A DNA stretch of 64,000 nucleotides, taken from assembly GCA_018003015.1 (NCBI GenBank), contig JAGNEZ010000001.1, positions 202,808 to 266,807 of the forward strand. The letters are read 5' to 3'. Origin of the DNA: Phycisphaerae bacterium. Its GTDB lineage: Bacteria; Planctomycetota; Phycisphaerae; UBA1845; PWPN01. Below the pieces are notes generated by a model that saw only the letters and a program-made list of their open reading frames with translations, had not been told where the DNA came from and searched no databases. A program made the translations under genes and the position numbers. Of the stretch, positions 1-9,760 are shown piece by piece (positions within the stretch are counted from its first letter, which is position 1; each line of letters begins with the position of its first letter).

Positions 1-140
1 CCCGCCGGACACGTACCCATGTGAATCCCGGCGCTGATCAGCGCGGTCCCCGGGCTCGCCTCGCCCAGGGCAAACGGATCAGCCGACGCGTCGAGGGCGT
101 CACGGGGACTCTCCCGCAACCTTGGCGTTTGTTCCAGCAT
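1..140 (-). CDS. N-terminal part of an unrecognised protein, cut by left edge
   Basis: An open frame starts at the ATG at 138-140 behind a good Shine-Dalgarno (AGAAGGAGAAAGCG then ATG) and stays open to the window edge, giving about 46 residues beginning MLEQTPRLRESPRD. It begins 48 nt downstream of the stop of the ClpA/B-like AAA+ gene on the same strand, so it is probably the next gene of the ubiquitin-like operon. Too little is visible to assign a family. Confidence 0.55.
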   Translation of the reverse strand, partial: MLEQTPRLRESPRDALDASADPFALGEASPGTALISAGIHMGTCPA

Positions 141-188
141 CGCTTTCTCCTTCTGGTTCTGGTTCCACATCCGAACCCGGCACAGGTC

Positions 189-1445
189 TCATTCCATGAG
201 CTCATCGAAGTCCACGCCTGCCTCGAGCGAGTCCGCCGCGGCTACGTCATCGGGCGTCACCACGGTGCCCCCGCGCCATGTGGTGGCGGCGATGGCCGCG
301 GCGAGCAGGCTGGCCGCCGCCCCCGGCTGGGCCTGCCCGTGCTGGGCGGACAACCGCAGCACCATGCGCCGGGCCGCCGGCTCGACTTCAACGCCACTTG
401 CCGAAGCGTGCGAGTCCAGTGCCCGGGCCAACGCATCGCCCACCGGGGTCTCCAAGGGCGTCAGTACGAGCCGACGCCGCAGAGCACTGTCAGCCGCGAT
501 CCGCCGGAGCGAGACCGAAGGAGCCTTGAGCGTGCCGAATAGCCGTAAGCCCCGATCCAGCCCCGCGGCCAACAGGGCGTGACTGATTGGCGTCCCGAGA
601 AGCAGATCAATTCCCTTCACCAGGAACAGAGACCCGACCTGCTCCTGCATCTCGGTCAGCATCGTCATCAGAGCGGCGTCGCGGTCGGTCTCGAACATCG
701 CGCCGGCCGCGACCACCGCCGCCTCGATTCGGAACACACGGCGCACGACCCTGCGCTCCATGAGCTGGTTCGCAGCGGCGACCATCACCGTGTCCTTGCC
801 TGCCCCCGCAACCCCGATCACGATGGCCGCATGGGGCGGCTCGGGACGGGCCGCGATCATGGCAAGTTGTTCGGCCTGATAGGGCCGGATGCAGCGCTGC
901 TCAGCGGCGGCGGCGTCCTCTTTGGTGATGACTTCGGCTCGAGCCAAGACCCGTCCGGTCGGCGATTCGTCTTCCGCCGGTGAAGCCGCGGTTTCCCGCT
1001 CCACGGCCTCCCGGACCCCTGCCAGACAGGACGAGCCGAACAGCTCGAGAACCTCTAGAAGAACATCTAAAACTCTATCGCCTGGTACCGGATCCAGGTC
1101 AAGTCGTCGCCAGCGGCGGCGACAGGGACCGCGGCGAAGCAGATCAGCCAGGCCGGGCGCGTCGCCACCCCGATACTCCAGATCGTCGTCCACCATGACG
1201 ATCGCGCCGCCGCATGCCGCCTGCCCGAGCACCAGCACGTTCGTTGCACCCTTGTTGAACCGCTCATTGGTGGGAACATCGGTGAACAGGACCATGCGGG
1301 CACTGCACATCTCGATGCCGATGCCGTAGGCCGCGAGCACGCCGACCAGCGGCTCGCCGACGTGGGCGAATCGGCCTGGGGGGCATCGGCCGAACCCGAC
1401 AGGAGCGTGGGCAGAACCGTCTCGGATTCGTGGGGGGGTGGTCAT
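189..1445 (-). CDS. ClpA/ClpB-like AAA+ ATPase with degenerate Walker B
   Basis: 418 aa. An N-terminal region of about 200 residues has no recognised domain. A single AAA+ module follows, with Walker A GVAGAGKDT at residues 211-219. The stretch around 296-335 (LDRGLRLFGTLKAP, then DSALRRRLVLTPLETPV) matches the sensor and arginine-finger region of ClpA/ClpB-type D1 domains. Where that family has FIDEIH, this protein reads FLVKGID (about 274-280), so the usual Asp-Glu pair is missing and hydrolysis may be weak or absent. The start overlaps the stop of the upstream ARC-like ATPase gene (ATGA), implying translational coupling. A role as a partner or regulatory ATPase of the ubiquitin-like pathway is inferred from position only. 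Confidence 0.75.
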   Translation of the reverse strand: MTTPPRIRDGSAHAPVGFGRCPPGRFAHVGEPLVGVLAAYGIGIEMCSARMVLFTDVPTNERFNKGATNVLVLGQAACGGAIVMVDDDLEYRGGDAPGLADLLRRGPCRRRWRRLDLDPVPGDRVLDVLLEVLELFGSSCLAGVREAVERETAASPAEDESPTGRVLARAEVITKEDAAAAEQRCIRPYQAEQLAMIAARPEPPHAAIVIGVAGAGKDTVMVAAANQLMERRVVRRVFRIEAAVVAAGAMFETDRDAALMTMLTEMQEQVGSLFLVKGIDLLLGTPISHALLAAGLDRGLRLFGTLKAPSVSLRRIAADSALRRRLVLTPLETPVGDALARALDSHASASGVEVEPAARRMVLRLSAQHGQAQPGAAASLLAAAIAATTWRGGTVVTPDDVAAADSLEAGVDFDELME

Positions 1446-3205
1446 GACGCGGCCCTCAGCAGTTCATGGCTCGAAACGATCGGGGATTGCTCAATCAGGC
1501 GGACGTCGCTGATCTGGCCGGCCCCGACATCCACGTATCCCGTGATATTGCCGCGATTGCACATCTCCGCAACATCGCGGATCTGCCGATCCAACGCGCC
1601 GAGAAGGACGCGGGTGGTGATTCCGACCTCCCGGCCGGTCTTGGCCTCCTGCCGACGAACCCTGCGCGCAGCCTGTTCGACCGCCTTGGCAACAATCGCC
1701 GGCGTGAGCATCTGGCGACGGTAGATGATCATCGGCGTGCTGCTGCCGACAAGGTAGACCTGGAGTTGCCCGGGATCGCCGTTCGGCGCGAACAGGAATG
1801 CCTCAGCCTCCGAAACCAGGCGCTGTCGTGCGGCCTTCTCGCCGGGCTCACCCTGGAGCGCGACCGGCAGCCTGCCGAGATGTTTGGCGATCACCGAGCG
1901 GAAGTGGTGCCGGTCGAGATGGCCAAACCGCGTGACCTGGAAGCGACGGGTAAATGCACTGTCCAAGGCCTCGACCAGGTTCGTCGTGGCGATCACGATC
2001 AGGTGCTTGTCAGCAAGGTCTTTCCGCGTCGGATCGACCTTGGCCAGCAGGCCGCTGCACAGCCGTGAGTACACCGCCTCGTTGTCGGCGTCGTTCACCG
2101 AACGCCGTCGGGCAAGGGCATCTATCTCCTCGAGTATCACGATGCAGGGCAGATGATAGAACTTGCCGTTGAGTTCCACGGGCTCGCCGGCCATTTGCTC
2201 GGCCTCCGAGAACAGCCGGTCGATGTTCTTGTCGGAGACCCCCAGCAGGTGGCTCAAGGTGGAAGCCGCATTCAGACGGAAGCACCTCGGGGGGAGTTCC
2301 TCCGAGGGAACGCCGCTGATTGAGGCGATCCGATCATAGATGGCCCGGTGCAGAGCCATCAGGCTGTACGTCTTGCCGGTCCCGGTTCCACCCTGCAGCA
2401 GGAGCGTCGTGAGCAGCGGCGCATTCCAGCGCTTCCGCAGCCATTCATGCCGGTCGCTCAACGTCAACTCAACATCTTCAAGGATTTCGAGAATATAGCT
2501 TGGCGGATCGCCAAGATCGTCGACCGTCACCGTGGGCACAGGTTCTTTGGAGAGGAACTTATAGTGCTCGAACTTGCTGCCGGCCCCGGGGAGGGCGTAG
2601 AACGCCATCTCCTGCCGGGCGCTCACTACGATCTTCGCCCCCGGTTCCACCTCGCCGGCCTCGATCTGATCGGTCAACCGCTGAGAAGCGAGGAAATGCT
2701 GGCCTTCCTGCTCACGGAGGGTCACGTCCACGTAGTCCCCCACGCGCTTGCCGAGGATGGCGATCTCCCCCGAGCGATCGCCACACGGCTGCGAGCCGAT
2801 GATGGCCTTGCCCTCCCGGTCGATCTCGACCGAGTCGCCCCGACGAAGCGCTTCGGCAAGCTTCTCGTCGGGAACGGGTAGCGTAATCGCCATGCCGTCC
2901 TGCAGCCGAACATGGGCCCGGCGCATCCCGCCTTTCTCTTCGGCATGCTGTAGGAATACACCGGATCGCGTCGATCCGCGCTGCATCTCCTCAAGCCTCT
3001 CCCGGTACTGCGCAGCGAGCTTCTTCGCCTGCTCGTTCGCCTTGGCGGCGGTCCCCAGTTCAATCAACATGCGAATCACGCTCAGACCCTGTTCGGGATC
3101 GTGGGTGATGATCTGATGAATCAGCACGGCCTTGTGCTCGTCAGGAACACCGGCCTCCATGATCAACTGCTTGAGTTCCTCGGTCCCAGCCTTGTTCTTG
3201 GCCAT
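1442..3205 (-). CDS. ARC/Mpa-like (proteasomal ATPase-type) AAA+ ATPase
   Basis: 587 aa. Layout: a charged helical/coiled-coil region (about 50-78), beta-rich segments compatible with the tandem OB domains of ARC/Mpa (about 80-205), then the AAA+ module. Walker A is GGTGTGKT (272-279); Walker B is IVILEEID, with Glu in the usual Asp position followed by the catalytic Glu (360); sensor-1 is ATTN (407-410); the arginine finger is FTRRF (418-422). Proteasomal ATPases thread tagged substrates into a protease. Here the C-terminus (LLRAAS) lacks the HbYX/GQYL-type tail that docks on 20S proteasomes, and no proteasome subunit is in the window, so the protease partner is unknown. Start fixed by AAAGGAGG 8 nt upstream. 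It lies 114 nt after the JAMM gene and is coupled to the next AAA+ gene. Confidence 0.82.
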   Translation of the reverse strand: MAKNKAGTEELKQLIMEAGVPDEHKAVLIHQIITHDPEQGLSVIRMLIELGTAAKANEQAKKLAAQYRERLEEMQRGSTRSGVFLQHAEEKGGMRRAHVRLQDGMAITLPVPDEKLAEALRRGDSVEIDREGKAIIGSQPCGDRSGEIAILGKRVGDYVDVTLREQEGQHFLASQRLTDQIEAGEVEPGAKIVVSARQEMAFYALPGAGSKFEHYKFLSKEPVPTVTVDDLGDPPSYILEILEDVELTLSDRHEWLRKRWNAPLLTTLLLQGGTGTGKTYSLMALHRAIYDRIASISGVPSEELPPRCFRLNAASTLSHLLGVSDKNIDRLFSEAEQMAGEPVELNGKFYHLPCIVILEEIDALARRRSVNDADNEAVYSRLCSGLLAKVDPTRKDLADKHLIVIATTNLVEALDSAFTRRFQVTRFGHLDRHHFRSVIAKHLGRLPVALQGEPGEKAARQRLVSEAEAFLFAPNGDPGQLQVYLVGSSTPMIIYRRQMLTPAIVAKAVEQAARRVRRQEAKTGREVGITTRVLLGALDRQIRDVAEMCNRGNITGYVDVGAGQISDVRLIEQSPIVSSHELLRAAS

Positions 3206-3319: not shown

Positions 3320-4483
3320 TCAAGCCGACCCGATGCATCCCGCCGTGTAGAGCCCCGGATCGAAAGCCTCGATGACGTAGTACGGTCGCTCCGCAAGCTG
3401 GCCGTCGCGAAGCGTGAAGCAGCCATGCCGCGGTCCACGGCGGTCAAATCCGTAAATCAGACAAACCTGAAACGGCAGACGGCCTCCAAAGACGGCGCGA
3501 TGCCAGTCTCGATCATCCGGCGAGGGTGCCACGTTATGCCGGCTGCACGGGTGGGACGTATCGGCGCAGTGCTCGCAGGGGGGCGTCTCCAGAAACAGCA
3601 CTCGGTCAAACGGGTGGCCGTGGCACTGACCGATGAAACGCTCGGCAGGGCAGGCCTCCTGCCTTCGCCGAATGACCTGCTGGATGCACGCCCATGTGAC
3701 CCCGGAAAATGCGAGCCGGGCGGCCTTGGACTCGACATCCCAGAGCTTCAGACACTCCGTGATGACCACGCCGAATTCCCCAGTCTCCGGACACCGCACG
3801 GGACAGCCCAACAGGGCCGCGCCGGTCTCGATCGGCGGCTTCTCGCCGGCTCCGCGACGGGAATAGGTTTCACATCGGGCGAGGACCGCCCTCGGAAAAA
3901 AGACCGGCGCGTCCGTCGACCCATCCGCCGTCTCCGCGTACCCGTCGACTCGCTGCGCACCTTCGATGAGTCCTTTCATCGGCACCTCCAGGTATCGCAA
4001 CGGCGCTTCCGCCACACTCACCCGGAAGGAGCCATCCGCCTTCGGCTCAACGCCCGGCCGCCCGTCCGCTACCCGCCGGGCATGAAGCTCGTACGCGTGG
4101 CTCGCGGCCCGCTGGGGCTCGACGCGAAACGCGATCCGGCGGGCCACGTGTCGTATCGCCGTGAGCGTGAACCGCCGCTCGGCTTCCTGTCCGGCGGGAT
4201 CCTGCGAACGCAAGGAGAAGCCCGAACACCGACCGCCCTCCTCGGCGATGTGCGGCACGAGCTCCGACACGACCGCATCGAGCGGAAGCAGATGGTTGCG
4301 GCGAAGAAACGCCTCGAACCATAACTCCGATCGATGGTCAGCCAGATCCATGAACGGATCGATGTAGTCCCAGCCCGTGCTGACCGACCCGTCCTGGCGC
4401 CGCACCGCCACGTTGACCGTCAGTATCCACTTCGCCGCGCCGACCCGTCGGCCGGAACGCCCCCCGAGAGTCCTGCTCACCAT
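3320..4483 (-). CDS. JAMM/JAB-domain metalloprotease (deubiquitinase-like)
   Basis: 387 aa. Residues 1-190 are unassigned. A C-terminal JAB/MPN-like domain follows: the catalytic Glu is E219 in PPIETGAALLG, the zinc-binding H-x-H-P is at 288-291 (CHGHP), and SPDD at 321-324 supplies the S-x2-D element. Together these make the JAMM signature of enzymes that cleave isopeptide or C-terminal bonds of ubiquitin-like proteins. About 30 residues separate HxHP from SxxD, against about 7 in the classical motif, and the insertion holds C303, C306 and C313, a possible zinc knuckle. Start chosen at 4483 because GGAGG lies 7 nt upstream; an ATG six codons earlier has no ribosome site. It follows the ubiquitin-like gene by 117 nt, so deconjugation of that modifier is likely. 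Confidence 0.8.
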   Translation of the reverse strand: MVSRTLGGRSGRRVGAAKWILTVNVAVRRQDGSVSTGWDYIDPFMDLADHRSELWFEAFLRRNHLLPLDAVVSELVPHIAEEGGRCSGFSLRSQDPAGQEAERRFTLTAIRHVARRIAFRVEPQRAASHAYELHARRVADGRPGVEPKADGSFRVSVAEAPLRYLEVPMKGLIEGAQRVDGYAETADGSTDAPVFFPRAVLARCETYSRRGAGEKPPIETGAALLGCPVRCPETGEFGVVITECLKLWDVESKAARLAFSGVTWACIQQVIRRRQEACPAERFIGQCHGHPFDRVLFLETPPCEHCADTSHPCSRHNVAPSPDDRDWHRAVFGGRLPFQVCLIYGFDRRGPRHGCFTLRDGQLAERPYYVIEAFDPGLYTAGCIGSA

Positions 4484-4600
4484 GATGCGGCCTCCGAACA
4501 CCTGCCATGCAGCATCCGCTGCCGAGTGCGAACCAGACGGCGTTGCGGGTGCACACCATCAGGGCATGCCCCCGCCCCGCCGCGCCCGACCCGATGTGTT

Positions 4601-4927
4601 CTACCCGCCCCGCGGGCCCCAGCAGCCCAGATGTGCGTTCGGCACCACCGTGAGTTCCTCCTGCTGCTCGGCCCCGACCGCCTCTCCAATGGTGGCGTTG
4701 GGGGGCACCAGCCAGGTGTCGTCCCGCCGGAGACTGACCGGTTGGTTCTCGGGGATCCCGAGCTCCCGCGCAGCCGCTCGCAGGACCCGCGCCGCGGGTG
4801 CGTCCGGCCGCACCTCGCTGAGGTTGACACGGCGGCTGCCGGTCACGTCGACAAATCTCAGGTTGAGAAGCTGCGGCCCCGCGCCGCTCGGCGCCTCCGC
4901 CGGCAATGTGACCAGATCGTCTTTCAT
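4601..4927 (-). CDS. Ubiquitin-like beta-grasp protein ending in Gly-Gly
   Basis: 108 aa. After a 19-residue flexible lead, residues 20-96 follow a ubiquitin-fold pattern: a strand pair (LLNLRFVDVTGSRRVNL), a helix (ARVLRAAARELGI), then short strands ending in EELTVVP. The protein ends GCWGPRGG and then stops, so the diglycine needed for E1 adenylation is already exposed, as in pre-processed ubiquitin-like modifiers. The start ATG overlaps the preceding stop (ATGA) and has AGGAGG at good spacing; an in-frame extension to 5053 lies inside the upstream gene and was rejected. Position between the E2/unknown genes and the JAMM gene supports the role of conjugated modifier. It does not resemble the disordered Pup or UBact proteins. 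Confidence 0.85.
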   Translation of the reverse strand: MKDDLVTLPAEAPSGAGPQLLNLRFVDVTGSRRVNLSEVRPDAPAARVLRAAARELGIPENQPVSLRRDDTWLVPPNATIGEAVGAEQQEELTVVPNAHLGCWGPRGG

Positions 4928-5760
4928 GGGATGTACCTCCTCTCGAAACGTACGAAACCCGCCGGGATCAATTCCAACGCCTCGCTCCGCACGCGAGCGT
5001 CGGCAATCAAGGTCGCCACGGGCACTATGTTCGCGACCACGCGTCGCAAACACGTGAGACTTCGTATCAGCAGAAATGCTTCCAGAAGATCATGCTCCGC
5101 CCTGGTGAGATCCACCTCCGCATAGCAGGCGGGTGCGGTGCTGAGCCCCCAGTGGATCCGCACCAGGCGATACCGCGTCTGAGCGTCAACGAGGAAGTGG
5201 CGCAGCCATCTCCGCCGGTTCTCAGATAGATCGTCGGGGATGATCCGCAGGATCTCGAATCGAAGGGCGAGCCGGCCGCGATCGACTGTGTGCACGATTT
5301 CGCCCTGGCAAACGTGCCCGTCACAGCAGACCGTGAGGGCGTCCTTCGGCATCCACCCCTGCACGACTTCCAGCGGGGGTGGCAGCCACCGGGCCCCGGG
5401 GCGCTCGTTCTTGGCCGTCTCCAGGGCCCACAGAACCGTCGCTTTGAGGTACTCAGCATCGGCACCTCCCAATACCCCCGCCGCGGAAAGGTCGGGCAGC
5501 GGGATGTCCGCGATCAGACGCGCTGCCTCACCCTCACAAATCAGCTTCCAGGGCCCCGGGGGGCTCGTTGGCTCTAGAACATCTCCAACCTGAGAACACC
5601 CTCGTGAAACCAATGTTGCCCACATGCCATCCAAACACAGGTGAAGGCCGTTTCGTTCATAAGCCGCATGCTCGCCGGCGGAGCCATGGCCGTCGTGGAC
5701 CGACCGGGCAAAGCCCATTGCCTCAATCACCGCGTCCAGCGGACACTGCAGCGCTTTCAT
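4924..5760 (-). CDS. Unrecognised protein encoded between the E2 and the ubiquitin-like modifier
   Basis: 278 aa, no family recognised. No signal peptide or membrane segment is obvious. It has several Cys/His residues (for example CCDGHVCQG near the middle) and a C-terminal hydrophobic/helical half (DLLEAFLLIRSLTCLRRVVANIV). Both ends are translationally coupled: its ATG overlaps the E2 stop (ATGA) and its stop overlaps the ATG of the ubiquitin-like gene (ATGA). Such tight packing suggests a stoichiometric partner, perhaps a substrate adaptor or conjugation cofactor, but that is inference. The 62 extra in-frame codons upstream of 5760 lie inside the E2 gene and were not used. Confidence 0.7.
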   Translation of the reverse strand: MKALQCPLDAVIEAMGFARSVHDGHGSAGEHAAYERNGLHLCLDGMWATLVSRGCSQVGDVLEPTSPPGPWKLICEGEAARLIADIPLPDLSAAGVLGGADAEYLKATVLWALETAKNERPGARWLPPPLEVVQGWMPKDALTVCCDGHVCQGEIVHTVDRGRLALRFEILRIIPDDLSENRRRWLRHFLVDAQTRYRLVRIHWGLSTAPACYAEVDLTRAEHDLLEAFLLIRSLTCLRRVVANIVPVATLIADARVRSEALELIPAGFVRFERRYIP

Positions 5761-6419
5761 GGCGTCGCTCCTCCACCGTATTCCACCGGGGCGAGGAACG
5801 GCGTACGATCCAGAGGCACCTGATCGCGGTGGGCCAGCCAGTATTGGGCGGCTTGCGGGTTCGCGACCCGGAGCGGATCTTCGGGGTCGATGGTGACGGT
5901 CTGCAGCTGCAGGATGGAGTAAAGCAGCAAGACCAGCTCGGCACAACCCAACGCGGCCACAGGCATCGACACGCTGGCATCACCGAGGCATAGCCCTTGG
6001 ATCGGAAGCCCGCCGGGGGGGGCCGCGTTTGAATGAAAGAGCGGCGGAGCGAAAACGAGCACCGCCACACTGTCTTTGGCGCCTCGGAGACAACCGTCCG
6101 TCAGAATGATGCCGAGTTCCGCCTGATCGGCAATGTAGATTTGACCATCCGGTCGCACCGCGGGGCATTTCACCCGCAGAGCCAACGCGATGCGGAGCGC
6201 TTCGCTGGCGTCGATTGCCCTGATCACCATTCGGCCAGGCGGGGCAAGCTGGTCGAGCCTCAAGAGGTTCTTGACCTCGGCTGGCTTTCGCCGGCCCCAC
6301 GGCGTGTTCCGGTCGTCAGGGCACGCTTGAACAATGTGCTCCAGGGCAACCTGTCGATCGGGACTCAACTCCATGGACCGCAGCGATGACAACCGCCGCC
6401 GAGGGTCTTGGCTGGTCAT
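5757..6419 (-). CDS. E2-like ubiquitin-conjugating enzyme (UBC fold)
   Basis: 220 aa. The C-terminal half follows the eukaryotic E2 pattern. FHSN (128-131) sits where HPN occurs, followed 13 residues later by GLCLGD with the probable catalytic cysteine C144. Next come a helix CAELVLLLYSILQLQ and the DPEDPL...NPQAAQYW block (178-194), matching the E2 sequence after the active site (LLSIQSLL, DPLVP, A..Y). The enzyme would take the modifier from the E1 as a thioester. Residues 1-60 are an extra N-terminal region of unknown role. It overlaps the E1 stop and the downstream start by ATGA junctions. No E2 outside this pattern was considered more likely, but similarity was judged by eye. Confidence 0.82.
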   Translation of the reverse strand: MTSQDPRRRLSSLRSMELSPDRQVALEHIVQACPDDRNTPWGRRKPAEVKNLLRLDQLAPPGRMVIRAIDASEALRIALALRVKCPAVRPDGQIYIADQAELGIILTDGCLRGAKDSVAVLVFAPPLFHSNAAPPGGLPIQGLCLGDASVSMPVAALGCAELVLLLYSILQLQTVTIDPEDPLRVANPQAAQYWLAHRDQVPLDRTPFLAPVEYGGGATP

Positions 6420-7684
6420 GATTCACCTACCCCTTCAGCGTCCTTCCAAGAAAGCCACGTGCCCGCTCCGTGGTGACGAATCAGTGCCCAGGACGCGCTC
6501 GTCGCCCCCAGAGTCGCGACTCGCTGATCGAGCTGAGGGCGTAACACGCTCAGCGGAACCGCGTCGAAAGTGTGAAACGAATTCGTGCGGAGCTCGGCGC
6601 CACAACGGCAGCGCCGGTTTCGGCGTTTGCTCCAGAACCGCCCGATTGACCGTGGGCCGCAACGGGGGCATTCCGCACGAACCACGTAGCGGAAATCGTC
6701 GCCAAGACCAAGCACGGCATCGCCGCCGTCGCTGCTCATGCCGGAGACCTCCAGCAGTTCGCGAATCGCATGCCCGCGAAGCGGCTTGGCGAGCGGACGA
6801 CACCGCCACCGAGAATGGTCTTCGACGCAGTCTTGGTTGCGACCAAGCGGAATGACCGCGGCGTACCCGGGCCGGATGAAAGTCCCCTCCACTAGGCAAC
6901 TGTTTGGCAGAGGTTGGCCCAGACGGAGGGTGACCTTGTTCATCAACAGTGCGCCCATGTGCCCCGCCAGCGCACAGAGCGCAGGAATGCTCCGCGTGAC
7001 CGGTTCCTCTCGGCCGGCCTGATCCCTCTCTCCGACCATTTCGCACGAGAAGCCCGGCCCGTCGTCCGCAGCCATGCGCAGCTCCGCCGGTGTCATGTTG
7101 CACGCAGGGCAGGCATCTTGTGGGTCGCTGTTCGCGAAATACCGGATCTGGTATAGGCCGCTCGAGCCCTCGACGTTGCAGTAAATGACCGGGATGCCCA
7201 GATGCATCGCCGCCCGGGCCACATGCAGCTCCGCCGCCATCCGGTCCGTGCAACAGAAGATGAAGTCCACGCCCGCTACGCGCGTGAGGGGCAAATCCTC
7301 AAAGCCGCCAACAAAAGCATCGACCCGAGTGCTGCGGCTGACCTCAACGCAGCACTTCGCCACGTGGTCTGCCTTCCACCGGCGCAGGTCCCGCGGGAAG
7401 ATCACGCTGTTCGTCAACAAGGATTCGGGCTTGTAGGGTTTCGGATCGGCAATGATAATCGCTCTCGGATCCTGCCGTGCAACGCTCAGGATGCACGGCC
7501 CCCCTACGGAGCCCGCGCCGGCGAGAATGACCTGCAACCGTCCGAGCACCCGGTCCGGATCGACGTCCGGCCGTGAGCCCGAGAAGGCCGGCATGCGGGC
7601 AACCCGCTCAGGGGCGGCCACCGCCTTGACGCGGGACAACCGCTCGAGTCTCCTGAGCCTCGGTCGGTGCTCGGCCACGACCAT
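6416..7684 (-). CDS. E1-like ubiquitin-activating enzyme (ThiF/MoeB/Uba superfamily)
   Basis: 422 aa from the ATG at 7682-7684, which follows GGAGGAG and overlaps the RING gene stop by 1 nt (TGATG). Rossmann ATP site: GAGSVGG (56-62), an acidic residue ending strand 2 (IIIAD, D80), K104, and CTDR (145-148) for Mg-ATP. The structural zinc site is CPAC (192-195) paired with CPRC (339-342) or CRC (359-361). The catalytic Cys is probably C214 (GFSCEM) or C237 (ALCALAG). The enzyme would adenylate the Gly-Gly tail of the neighbouring modifier and pass it to the E2. The C-terminal 90 residues, with a second Cys pair, extend past the ThiF core and may be an E2- or modifier-docking region. Confidence 0.88.
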   Translation of the reverse strand: MVVAEHRPRLRRLERLSRVKAVAAPERVARMPAFSGSRPDVDPDRVLGRLQVILAGAGSVGGPCILSVARQDPRAIIIADPKPYKPESLLTNSVIFPRDLRRWKADHVAKCCVEVSRSTRVDAFVGGFEDLPLTRVAGVDFIFCCTDRMAAELHVARAAMHLGIPVIYCNVEGSSGLYQIRYFANSDPQDACPACNMTPAELRMAADDGPGFSCEMVGERDQAGREEPVTRSIPALCALAGHMGALLMNKVTLRLGQPLPNSCLVEGTFIRPGYAAVIPLGRNQDCVEDHSRWRCRPLAKPLRGHAIRELLEVSGMSSDGGDAVLGLGDDFRYVVRAECPRCGPRSIGRFWSKRRNRRCRCGAELRTNSFHTFDAVPLSVLRPQLDQRVATLGATSASWALIRHHGAGTWLSWKDAEGVGES

Positions 7685-8343
7685 CACTCCTCCTCCGACG
7701 GTATCCAGATCAGCCCGGCATTCGTTCGAATCGGCTGCTGGCACACCGGGCACACGCCCGAGAGCGTCAGGCACGCGTAACCTTCGCCCTCCGCGTCAGC
7801 CGAGTCCGGTTTGGCGTTGTGAACCACCGCCGAGCAGACCGCACACTGCCAGACTTCCTGACCGGCGGAAGTCACGGTCTTGCACACCGGGCAAGTCTCG
7901 CCTGCCAGGGCTTTCCCAGCCAAACCCATGACTGGCTGCTCAAAAAGCGAAACGAACATCGGGTGGGCATCGTTGAATGCAAGCACATCCCGCATCGCCG
8001 CAATGGCCACGCGCGACACGGGCTCGCCGTTGATGCTCAGCCGCTGACCGGGTGGTAGGAGGATCAAGAGCCGCGGCGAGCGACCGCCATCGAGAAAGAG
8101 TGACTCAACGACGACGGTGTCATCTGACCACTGTGTCGCACCCCTGGCCAGGACGGCGATCTCCTGCGAATGCGTCTGCAGACACACCGGGCCATCGGAC
8201 GGCAGATCGATGCGGCTCCAGGCCCAGGCCGCCCCCGACCCGCCTGCACCTTCAACCGCCTCTAAGTCCGAATCCCCGGCCGAGGTCGGCGCGGCGGAGA
8301 CTTCATTTAGTAGACTAAGCCATCTTTTAGAGTGTCTCACCAT
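7684..8343 (-). CDS. RING/treble-clef zinc protein, candidate E3 ligase
   Basis: 219 aa. The N-terminal 140 residues are beta-rich (VCLQTHSQEIAVLARG; LLPPGQRLSINGEPV) and could be an FHA-like or other beta-sandwich module. The C-terminal 70 residues contain eight evenly ordered zinc ligands: C151xxC154, C167xxC170, H175, C191 and C198xxC201, the pattern of binuclear treble-clef (RING/PHD-like) domains. RING proteins have been described beside E1/E2 genes in prokaryotes (Burroughs, Iyer and Aravind), so an E3-like role is plausible. Its stop overlaps the E1 start. The start at 8343 uses AGGAGG 12 nt upstream; an in-frame ATG at 8376 is possible, giving 230 aa. Confidence 0.72.
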   Translation of the reverse strand: MVRHSKRWLSLLNEVSAAPTSAGDSDLEAVEGAGGSGAAWAWSRIDLPSDGPVCLQTHSQEIAVLARGATQWSDDTVVVESLFLDGGRSPRLLILLPPGQRLSINGEPVSRVAIAAMRDVLAFNDAHPMFVSLFEQPVMGLAGKALAGETCPVCKTVTSAGQEVWQCAVCSAVVHNAKPDSADAEGEGYACLTLSGVCPVCQQPIRTNAGLIWIPSEEE

Positions 8344-8531
8344 TGTCTTCGGCGTCCTCCTGCGGTACCATCCCATTCTCGTGTTCGGTGTCCAGTACGC
8401 AAGGAACGGTGGCGAGAAACTTGCCTTGACACGATCGACGATGAGATCGCGGAAAGATGCGTTGAACTACAGGCGGAAACGCGGCCCGCGCACTCGGCCG
8501 GGGGGGCGTCGTCACACATCGCCCCGGTCAT
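8337..8531 (-). CDS. Possible small Cys-containing ORF between membrane-protein and RING genes
   Basis: A 64-codon frame lies in the otherwise empty 234-nt gap between the membrane-protein gene and the RING gene, starting MTGAMCDDAPPAECAG. Its stop overlaps the RING start by 7 nt, the same coupling style seen elsewhere in this operon. Codon bias is good only in the first third, the ribosome site is weak, and the C-terminal part (Arg/Ser rich) looks non-coding. It may equally be untranslated spacer. Confidence 0.2.
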   Translation of the reverse strand: MTGAMCDDAPPAECAGRVSACSSTHLSAISSSIVSRQVSRHRSLRTGHRTREWDGTAGGRRRQW

Positions 8532-8577: not shown

Positions 8578-9159
8578 TCAGCAGTCTCTAAGGCCAGGAA
8601 TCGTAGCCAGCGCCTCTCCGCTGGCCGCCGTGCCCGGCCTGCGTTCGATGAACGGCGCCACGGCCGTATCGTCGACGACCTCGACCGGCACCAGAAGCCG
8701 GCGACCACGCCTCGACGAGCCAACAAGAATATCGGCACCGCGACCGGGCGGGCTGGCCTTGCTCAGAATCGTCTTGAGGAGCGAAGCGTAGCGAGCAATG
8801 GCCTCCTCCTGCGGGCCCTTGAGCTTCTTCGCAACCGGCGAAAACCGGGCCGCCAGTTCCGATGCGATCCGGGCATCCCCCATCAGGCCCCGCAAGACAG
8901 GGTCGAAGCCTTGAGCCGTGTCGGACTCCATCTGGTCACTCAACAGGAGCAGAAGGCGGTGCAGGAAGCGGGGAATCTCCTGAACAGGCCCAGATCGTTG
9001 ACCGTTTGAAACCGATACGTACCCCAGCTTCTCGGGGCCGTTGGGCAGTCGCAGGGTGATGTGCCATTTCCGAACGCGGGGAGTCGTTCGGTCAGGACGC
9101 GGCAAGGCATAGAGCGTCAGGTACCCAATCAGGCAGTACACTGCGATGATGGTCAACAT
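8578..9159 (-). CDS. Small N-terminally membrane-anchored protein, first gene of the ubiquitin-like operon
   Basis: 193 aa from the ATG at 9157-9159, which has AAGGAAGGAGG 10 nt upstream. Residues 1-20 (MLTIIAVYCLIGYLTLYALP) form one hydrophobic segment; the remaining 170 residues are soluble, basic and helical (LHRLLLLLSDQM; EEAIARYASLLKTILSKA), with a beta-containing C-terminus (RRLLVPVEVVDDTAVAPF). No family recognised. As first gene of the operon it may anchor the conjugation machinery at the membrane or be its substrate receptor; this is inference from position. Its leader contains the interleaved repeats at 9181-9239. Confidence 0.68.
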   Translation of the reverse strand: MLTIIAVYCLIGYLTLYALPRPDRTTPRVRKWHITLRLPNGPEKLGYVSVSNGQRSGPVQEIPRFLHRLLLLLSDQMESDTAQGFDPVLRGLMGDARIASELAARFSPVAKKLKGPQEEAIARYASLLKTILSKASPPGRGADILVGSSRRGRRLLVPVEVVDDTAVAPFIERRPGTAASGEALATIPGLRDC

Positions 9160-9760
9160 GGGGAGTATTCCTCCTTCCTTGTGTCGCGATGAGGCCGTCA
9201 TACCGCACATACCGCACGACACCTTTCGGTCGCCTCATCCATCCGCATACCACATGCATACAGGAGCTACGTGACGTGCAACCCACTTCTCGAAGGGGCA
9301 TCCTGCTCACCTTCGATATTGAATTAGATGATACCGCGCTGCCGAAAGCGCTCGCGTGTTGACGTGCGCGTTGGCGCACGCTGATCACATGCCGCCCAAA
9401 GACGTGCAGAACGAAGTTGCCGCACGCTCCGACGAACGTCGGCAACGACACGACCATGAGGAGCCACTTCGGAGTCGCCTGAGCCATACGCCGATGGAGG
9501 CCCTTCGCGCCGCAGGCAATCCGCCTCTCCCAACATCATGATTGCTCTGAGGATGCGTGCCGCAGCGACGGGCACGGATGGGCACTACCACCCCAAATCA
9601 CGATGCGCCGCTGTTTGGCCGCCCGGAGTTCTTGCCATTCCGGCGAAGCGCGGCTATCAAGTAGTCTAGGAACACACCTCGACCCGGTCAGGCGCCGCAT
9701 GGGGTCAGCCCTTTGGCCGGACGCGGTCGGATGCACCTCGGTCGGGATAGGAGCAGGAAG
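9160..9760. other. Divergent intergenic region between the ubiquitin-like operon and the plus-strand gene
   Basis: About 600 bp with no convincing gene. It holds the structured leader at 9181-9239, an AT-rich patch near 9315-9336 (GATATTGAATTAGATGATA) that is a promoter candidate for the minus-strand operon, and a perfect 7-bp hairpin (CGTGCGC, loop GTTG, GCGCACG) at 9363-9380 without a T tract. A minus-strand frame from 9487 opens with a hydrophobic stretch (WLLMVVSLPTFVGACGNFVL), but it lacks a ribosome site and runs into the next gene out of frame. Confidence 0.5.
9181..9239 (-). promoter_or_regulatory. Structured leader: interleaved inverted repeats with tandem 9-mers upstream of the operon
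   Basis: Read on the minus strand, the order is GATGAGGC, GTGTCG, two copies of TGCGGTATG, GCCTCATC, CGACAC, followed within 1 nt by the Shine-Dalgarno AAGGAAGGAGG of the first gene. Arm 1 (9232-9239) is the perfect complement of 9188-9195 (8 bp). Arm 2 (9217-9222) is the perfect complement of 9181-9186 (6 bp). The helices cross in order, so they can form only as alternatives or as a pseudoknot. The tandem 9-mers (9199-9207, 9208-9216) could instead be a protein-binding DNA site. Confidence 0.4.

Follow-up and report, generated by a model that had tools for sequence, protein, structure and literature searches.

Operons that bring together genes for RING, E1, E2, JAB and ubiquitin-like modifier (Ubl) proteins are known from prokaryotes; as summarized in PMC4197634, those described by Burroughs, Iyer and Aravind (2011) occur in the Actinobacteria, Planctomycetes and Acidobacteria. 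Iyer et al. (2006) recognized stand-alone Ubls of bacteria in which a single C-terminal glycine is conserved, and predicted that JAB proteins both process and remove bacterial Ubls (PMC1779556). With Caldiarchaeum subterraneum, the JAMM homologue Rpn11 cleaves pro-ubiquitin before its propeptide, CGEPIRRAA (PMC5654768), and in the Bil/Bub anti-phage systems BilC trims BilA, freeing its C-terminal glycine (PMC11354881).

A locus of this kind lies in the window, the whole stretch of 64,000 nucleotides that was analysed, the host of which was placed as a planctomycete through a named relative, RA.bin145 (Ubl 95% identical). The RING/E1/E2/JAB operon type is already known in the Planctomycetes, and it is represented here with variant features. 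To the extent that the operons of Burroughs et al. are recounted in PMC4197634, their component list is the same as that of the window locus and the phylum is partly the same, and Prok-RING_1 is present here; by comparison, an ARC/Mpa-like ATPase, a PRTRC-like or Dop/Pup/PafA continuation and a genus-specific tail on the Ubl are described here from the loci themselves.

The C. subterraneum operon likewise encodes a pro-Ubl with an E1, an E2, a small RING protein and a JAMM protein, and the propeptide removed by the latter starts with Cys, as does the tail of the window Ubl (PMC5654768). However, C. subterraneum ubiquitin has a conserved diglycine before its propeptide, whereas the window Ubl has a single conserved Gly. 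The Bil/Bub systems share the E1-E2-JAMM-Ubl logic, including exposure of a C-terminal Gly (PMC11354881), but BilA has two Ubl domains, the Bil E2 carries a CEHH motif, and the four-gene operon was described without RING or ARC ATPase; the window locus, with a single-domain Ubl of 108 amino acids, a His-x-Asn...Cys E2 and both RING and ARC genes, falls outside the Bil type. A PADLOC search of the locus returned no specific defence system and no Bil match, the only match being to E1-E2 (9e-4). Type 6d of Iyer et al. resembles the locus in its stand-alone single-Gly Ubl, its separate E1 and E2, and a JAB protein with an N-terminal domain, and differs from it in that the classical His is missing from the 6d E2 and that an alpha-helical protein is encoded alongside, with neither RING nor ARC described (PMC1779556).

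Organization and products of the operon

The genes of the window operon run leftwards in the order RING-E1-E2-X-Ubl-JAMM-ARC/Mpa-like ATPase-AAA2. Exact 4-nt overlaps occur at four junctions, E1/E2, E2/X, X/Ubl (the stop of X with the ATG of the Ubl gene) and ARC/AAA2 (the stop of ARC with the start of AAA2). The features, in window positions, are as follows.

7684 to 8376, minus strand: RING-type zinc protein, candidate E3
6416 to 7774, minus strand: E1 (ThiF fold) with a C-terminal zinc ribbon
5757 to 6419, minus strand: E2 (UBC-like) with predicted catalytic Cys144 (FHSN...GLCLG)
4924 to 5760, minus strand: X, conserved protein, always between E2 and Ubl
4601 to 4927, minus strand: Ubl, putative ubiquitin-like modifier precursor, 108 amino acids
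4625 to 4627, minus strand: codon of Gly101, the invariant glycine taken as the conjugated C-terminus
4601 to 4624, minus strand: tail CWGPRGG (seven residues, genus-specific) plus stop, probable propeptide from loss of a TGA stop
3320 to 4501, minus strand: JAMM/JAB metallopeptidase with an N-terminal extension
1442 to 3205, minus strand: ARC/Mpa-like proteasomal-type AAA ATPase (coiled coil, OB domain, AAA)
189 to 1445, minus strand: AAA2, second, divergent P-loop ATPase
1 to 170, minus strand: start of Ubl2, a PRTRC-C-like small protein that continues beyond the window and is followed by protein B-like, JAMM2 and ThiF2 genes

The RING protein was recognized through Prok-RING_1 (PF14446), matched by six of the eight orthologues (best E 2e-6), and through its invariant Cys/His ligands; the score of the window protein itself is below the curated cut-off. 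The E1 matches PF00899 (E 9e-15) with its GxGxxG motif, Asp, Lys and CxxC pairs all invariant, its profile (A6) matches ThiF, MoeB, UBA1/5/7 and the Bub E1, and translation probably starts at a later codon than 7774. Against the PDB, the E2 profile (A3) found E2 enzymes only (best E 0.007), with the His-x-Asn and the Cys in alignment; Cys144 and Asn131 are invariant and several members have His-Pro-Asn, the motif of eukaryotic E2 enzymes being HPN...CL. Gene X changes faster than any other component and matches no family: it could be aligned in four operons, the other four having a gene of similar size at the same place that could not be aligned. Its product may be an adaptor dedicated to the system, or may select substrates.

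The catalytic positions of the JAMM protein (E225, H294-x-H296, S327 and D330) are invariant in eight orthologues, and three members match the Prok-JAB/JAB Pfam families at E near 1e-6. Its identification rests on this motif and these matches because the corresponding profile retrieved a JAMM enzyme from the PDB, STAM-binding protein, at an E of only 0.9. The ATPase profile (A7) aligns with mycobacterial Mpa over nearly its full length (E 3e-85), and the OB domain of proteasomal ATPases was found in five of seven members. AAA2 has homologues at two other loci (L008 and L024) and weak similarity to AAA_30/PhoH.

In the window genome (G000), the only protein of the 20S/HslV family (PF00227) found is HslV-like by sequence, and G247, G211 and G214 yielded none, the assemblies being 90-99% complete; for these reasons, the ARC/Mpa-like ATPase probably functions with no 20S proteasome. 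The ATPases of the window and its orthologues were also seen to have no clear HbYX proteasome-docking end (that of the window ends LLRAAS), which fits with the absence of the 20S particle. Upstream of the RING gene, at 8578-9222, the window encodes a small protein with one apparent membrane segment and no family match; it is 84% identical in the sister species and is a candidate member of the system only.

Distribution

Searching 392 genomes of the phylum with the ATPase profile yielded seven with a match, including the window's own; G152 and G001 were added from searches with the Ubl and from class-wide ATPase searches, giving eight loci besides the window. Searches with a single Ubl or E1 sequence missed most of the orthologues that the ARC profile recovered. 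The gene order is the same in the sister species (G001/RA.bin145; L002, L014), G152 (L008), G254 (L009), G336 (L010, L023, L024), G484 (L025), G247 (L026), G211 (L027) and G214 (L028), the G336 locus being spread across several contigs and many assemblies being fragmented. Gene order is conserved across families and classes, and identity to the window proteins is mostly 19-38% outside the sister species. With this divergence and only eight further loci, the system is judged to be sporadic but old. No further loci came from searches of the classes to which G254, G336 and G214 belong. Comparison of E1 and ARC with plasmids and of E2 with phages by tblastn, and of the ARC profile with viral contigs, gave no matches and hence no hint of a mobile element or phage.

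Identity and fold of the Ubl

The Ubl frame opens with the ATG at 4927 and closes with the stop at 4601, with zero internal stops; its translation reads MKDDLVTLP...VVPNAHLGCWGPRGG followed by the stop, and its C-terminal end, NAHLGCWGPRGG, finishes with HLGCWGPRGG. The sister species also encodes a Ubl of 108 amino acids, 95% identical and with the same last 11 residues. An earlier, sequence-only reading had reported that the protein ends WGPRGG directly before the stop, which is borne out by the translation and by the identical end in the sister species. That reading had also taken the protein for a ubiquitin-like modifier, and this is very probably correct: it is encoded with an E1, an E2, a RING protein and an intact JAMM protein, and orthologous Ubls occupy the same operon position at the eight other loci.

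A beta-grasp fold, which the same reading had put forward for structure prediction, is likely on the basis of context and predicted topology. AlphaFold, given two near-identical sequences (those of the window and L002), produced models of low to medium confidence, with a pLDDT of 47 over the full length and of 64.5 when confined to residues 17-108; in either model the predicted order is strand-strand-helix-strand-strand-helix. With Foldseek, the whole-protein model matched mostly UFM1, ubiquitin and SUMO, none significantly, while the matches of the second model were not mainly Ubls. By VIA, most matches were to ubiquitin, SUMO and UFM1, but the Z values of 3-4 to SUMO, UFM1 and ISG15 (best about 4) were tied with those to GYF domains and phage Dmd. 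The fold proposed earlier is likely, with modest model confidence and with other folds scoring equally well. In sequence, Pfam gave sub-threshold matches to Ufm1 and Rad60-SLD, and the Ubl profile found among PDB sequences just a meaningless glutaredoxin match (E 0.7). Eukaryotic UFM1 is a single-glycine Ubl made as a precursor with a short tail. Its similarity to the window Ubl in Pfam and fold comparisons is weak and far below thresholds, and no UFL1-like E3 was seen in the window system.

The C-terminus of the Ubl

The Ubls of the window, the sister species and the seven divergent orthologues (G152, G254, G336, G484, G247, G211 and G214) were aligned. Five columns are invariant among these nine sequences, Met1, Pro59, Arg67, Gly81 and Gly101, of which Gly101 alone lies towards the C-terminal end. 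The protein stops exactly at this residue in four of the seven divergent orthologues (G152, AHLG; G254, THLG; G336, THLG; G484, ARLG), the tail-less ends being ...TPKAHLG, ...TPKTHLG, ...TPRTHLG and ...PDARLG. With the more distant G247, G211 and G214, a Gly at the same position (DAG) is followed by the unrelated tails ARGPQD, AGGEAR and GRRSALS. The tail CWGPRGG was found only in the window and its sister species. The sequence-only reading had itself named an alignment of orthologous C-termini as a test of its proposal that a pre-exposed diglycine forms the working end, and orthologues without the terminal GG as the refuting result; a terminal GG is lacking in all seven divergent orthologues, and by its own test the proposal is not supported. 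In the window, Gly101 is present and must be cut free to become terminal.

The codon that follows Gly101 is a stop in the four tail-less orthologues, TGA in G152, G254 and G484 and TAG in G336; the window has TGC there and the sister species TGT. Since TGA stands there in three of the four tail-less orthologues, the unusual Cys of the window Ubl looks like a lost stop codon; such a change of TGA to a Cys codon with read-through would explain the Cys-Trp pair better than the earlier suggestion that it serves as a recognition feature. A tree of concatenated ARC, E1, E2 and JAB sequences, which is unrooted and for which the root was placed on the G247/G211/G214 clade, leaves the tail-less G484 outside (window,(G152,G254)) with 100% and 89% support, and is thereby consistent with the tail being derived in the window's genus. 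The simplest history would be that the TGA stop was lost and the frame was extended by seven codons of GC-rich, formerly intergenic DNA; this would be a clean case of propeptide gain through stop codon loss in a modifier. The tail would then probably be a late-added propeptide that needs removal.

That a read-through tail of this kind should end in GG is unremarkable. Glycine accounts for about 9.5% of the last ten residues in long open reading frames here, such that a GG end is expected in about 0.9%, and 0 of 62 long frames of the window's genus end in this way; a Gly-Gly end is uncommon, and on its own unremarkable. Between the window and its sister species, the seven tail codons differ by two synonymous changes and no amino-acid change. 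Because only synonymous differences separate the two species there, the tail is taken to be really coding, and it may be under selection rather than free to drift.

A proposed pathway and its alternatives

It is proposed, with a probability of roughly 0.72, that the 108-amino-acid protein is the Ubl precursor for the adjacent E1-E2-RING cascade and that Gly101 (...NAHLG), one conserved glycine, forms its active C-terminus rather than the Gly-Gly at the very end. Gly101 is taken as the conjugated residue because it is invariant, is the last residue in four orthologues, and is followed in the window by a derived tail. From the genes, their order, their conserved active sites and the conservation of Gly101, a series of reactions may be put forward. 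The precursor would be made with the CWGPRGG tail, which the operon JAMM, or another protease, would cut off after Gly101. The freed Gly101 would be adenylated by the E1 and passed to Cys144 of the E2, as the conserved active sites of both enzymes suggest, and transfer to target lysines would be directed by the RING protein. Finally, the JAMM protein would also remove the modifier, and modified proteins would be unfolded or extracted by the ARC/Mpa-like ATPase. The deconjugating role assigned earlier to the JAMM enzyme is retained in this pathway, in which the enzyme probably serves both maturation and deconjugation.

In an unlikely variant of this pathway, Gly101 would be the conjugated residue but the tail a neutral remnant, cleared by house-keeping carboxypeptidases, leaving the operon JAMM to deconjugate only. 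Stop loss can yield short tails and unrelated ones occur elsewhere, and with four orthologues in need of no trimming, the JAMM protein is not kept for trimming alone; on the other hand, both tail substitutions between the sister species are synonymous, hinting at constraint, and trimming of the Ubl is indeed carried out by JAMM homologues in related systems (PMC5654768, PMC11354881).

A functional Gly-Gly may have re-evolved in the window lineage, and the terminal pair would then be a ready-to-use end in this genus, with the role of Gly101 lost and the JAMM protein acting in deconjugation only. The occurrence of the GG end in both species, the purely synonymous tail changes and the rarity of GG among long frames speak for this reading. 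It is nevertheless quite improbable: no other orthologue has GG there, Gly101 is invariant, the window included, and the window E1, E2 and JAMM do not stand apart from their orthologues that act with a Ubl ending HLG or RLG. Given that four orthologues end at Gly101 and the tail appears derived, the earlier statement that no precursor processing is needed is unlikely to hold, and experiments designed around the terminal Gly-Gly would probably address the wrong C-terminus.

Sulfur transfer is the function of several bacterial E1-Ubl pairs. That precedent, and the PRTRC-like genes that follow in the window lineage, would suit a Ubl that is never conjugated and serves as a sulfur carrier or as a regulatory or adaptor beta-grasp protein of the operon, but this is very improbable with an E2 bearing its catalytic Cys, a RING protein and an intact JAMM at every informative locus, and with no biosynthetic genes seen in the cluster.

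Continuation of the operon into a second module

The genes that follow the ATPases are candidates for a second tagging module. In the window genome, AAA2 is followed by C-like, B-like, second JAMM and second ThiF genes (L029:17028-19901; G000:C1 about 200027-202900). The same PRTRC-like continuation occurs in G152 (L008) and, in part, in G484 (L025), where C-like, B-like and ThiF-like frames lie at the same place. The second JAMM matches PRTRC_A at E 5e-4 in the window genome, below the cut-off, and at 3e-8 in G152; within the window module, the ThiF protein satisfies its Pfam model, and B and C have no PRTRC match.

In G247, G211 and G214, the ATPase gene is instead followed, tightly packed and with several overlapping starts and stops, by a Dop-family gene, a Pup-like gene and a second gene of the Pup-ligase family, the hybrid operon RING-E1-E2-X-Ubl-JAMM-ARC-Dop-Pup-like-PafA-like spanning L028:4097-13844, L026:1185-11049 and L027:5061-14743. 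Each of these loci has two Pup_ligase genes (E down to 7e-102), the Dop-family gene matching PF03136 at E 2e-97 to 6e-102 and, in L028, the NCBIfam Dop model at 8e-86. Between the two are small frames of 64-73 amino acids that end GGE or GGQ, as does Pup. None of these three small proteins matches the Pup Pfam model, and they are designated Pup-like from their position, size, shared RQ-x-GG(E/Q) end and neighbours.

At these orthologous loci, a complete Pup gene set shares an operon, and one proteasomal-type ATPase, with an E1/E2/RING/JAMM cascade. A search of the literature, with Burroughs et al. (2011) outside its reach, found no description of both tagging systems in one operon. Tentatively, and with the balance still somewhat against it, one ARC/Mpa-like unfoldase could serve two tags, both without a 20S proteasome: the Ubl, attached through E1-E2-RING and removed by JAMM, and a second tag, which in one clade would be Pup, with Dop, Pup and PafA in the same operon, and in the window clade a second, PRTRC-like Ubl with its own JAMM and E1. 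Because the operon is shared, the relation of the two kinds of protein tagging, and the role of the ATPase without 20S, can be addressed directly by cloning such operons.

Pup had been reported earlier from Rhodopirellula, with no proteasome genes linked to it (PMC2588565), as was a single-copy Dop/PafA relative in some Planctomycetes (PMC7947786). A lone Dop/PafA-family protein, with an open frame of 628 amino acids, was also observed in G484 (G484:C186:34546-36324; L038), on a contig other than that of its Ubl operon.
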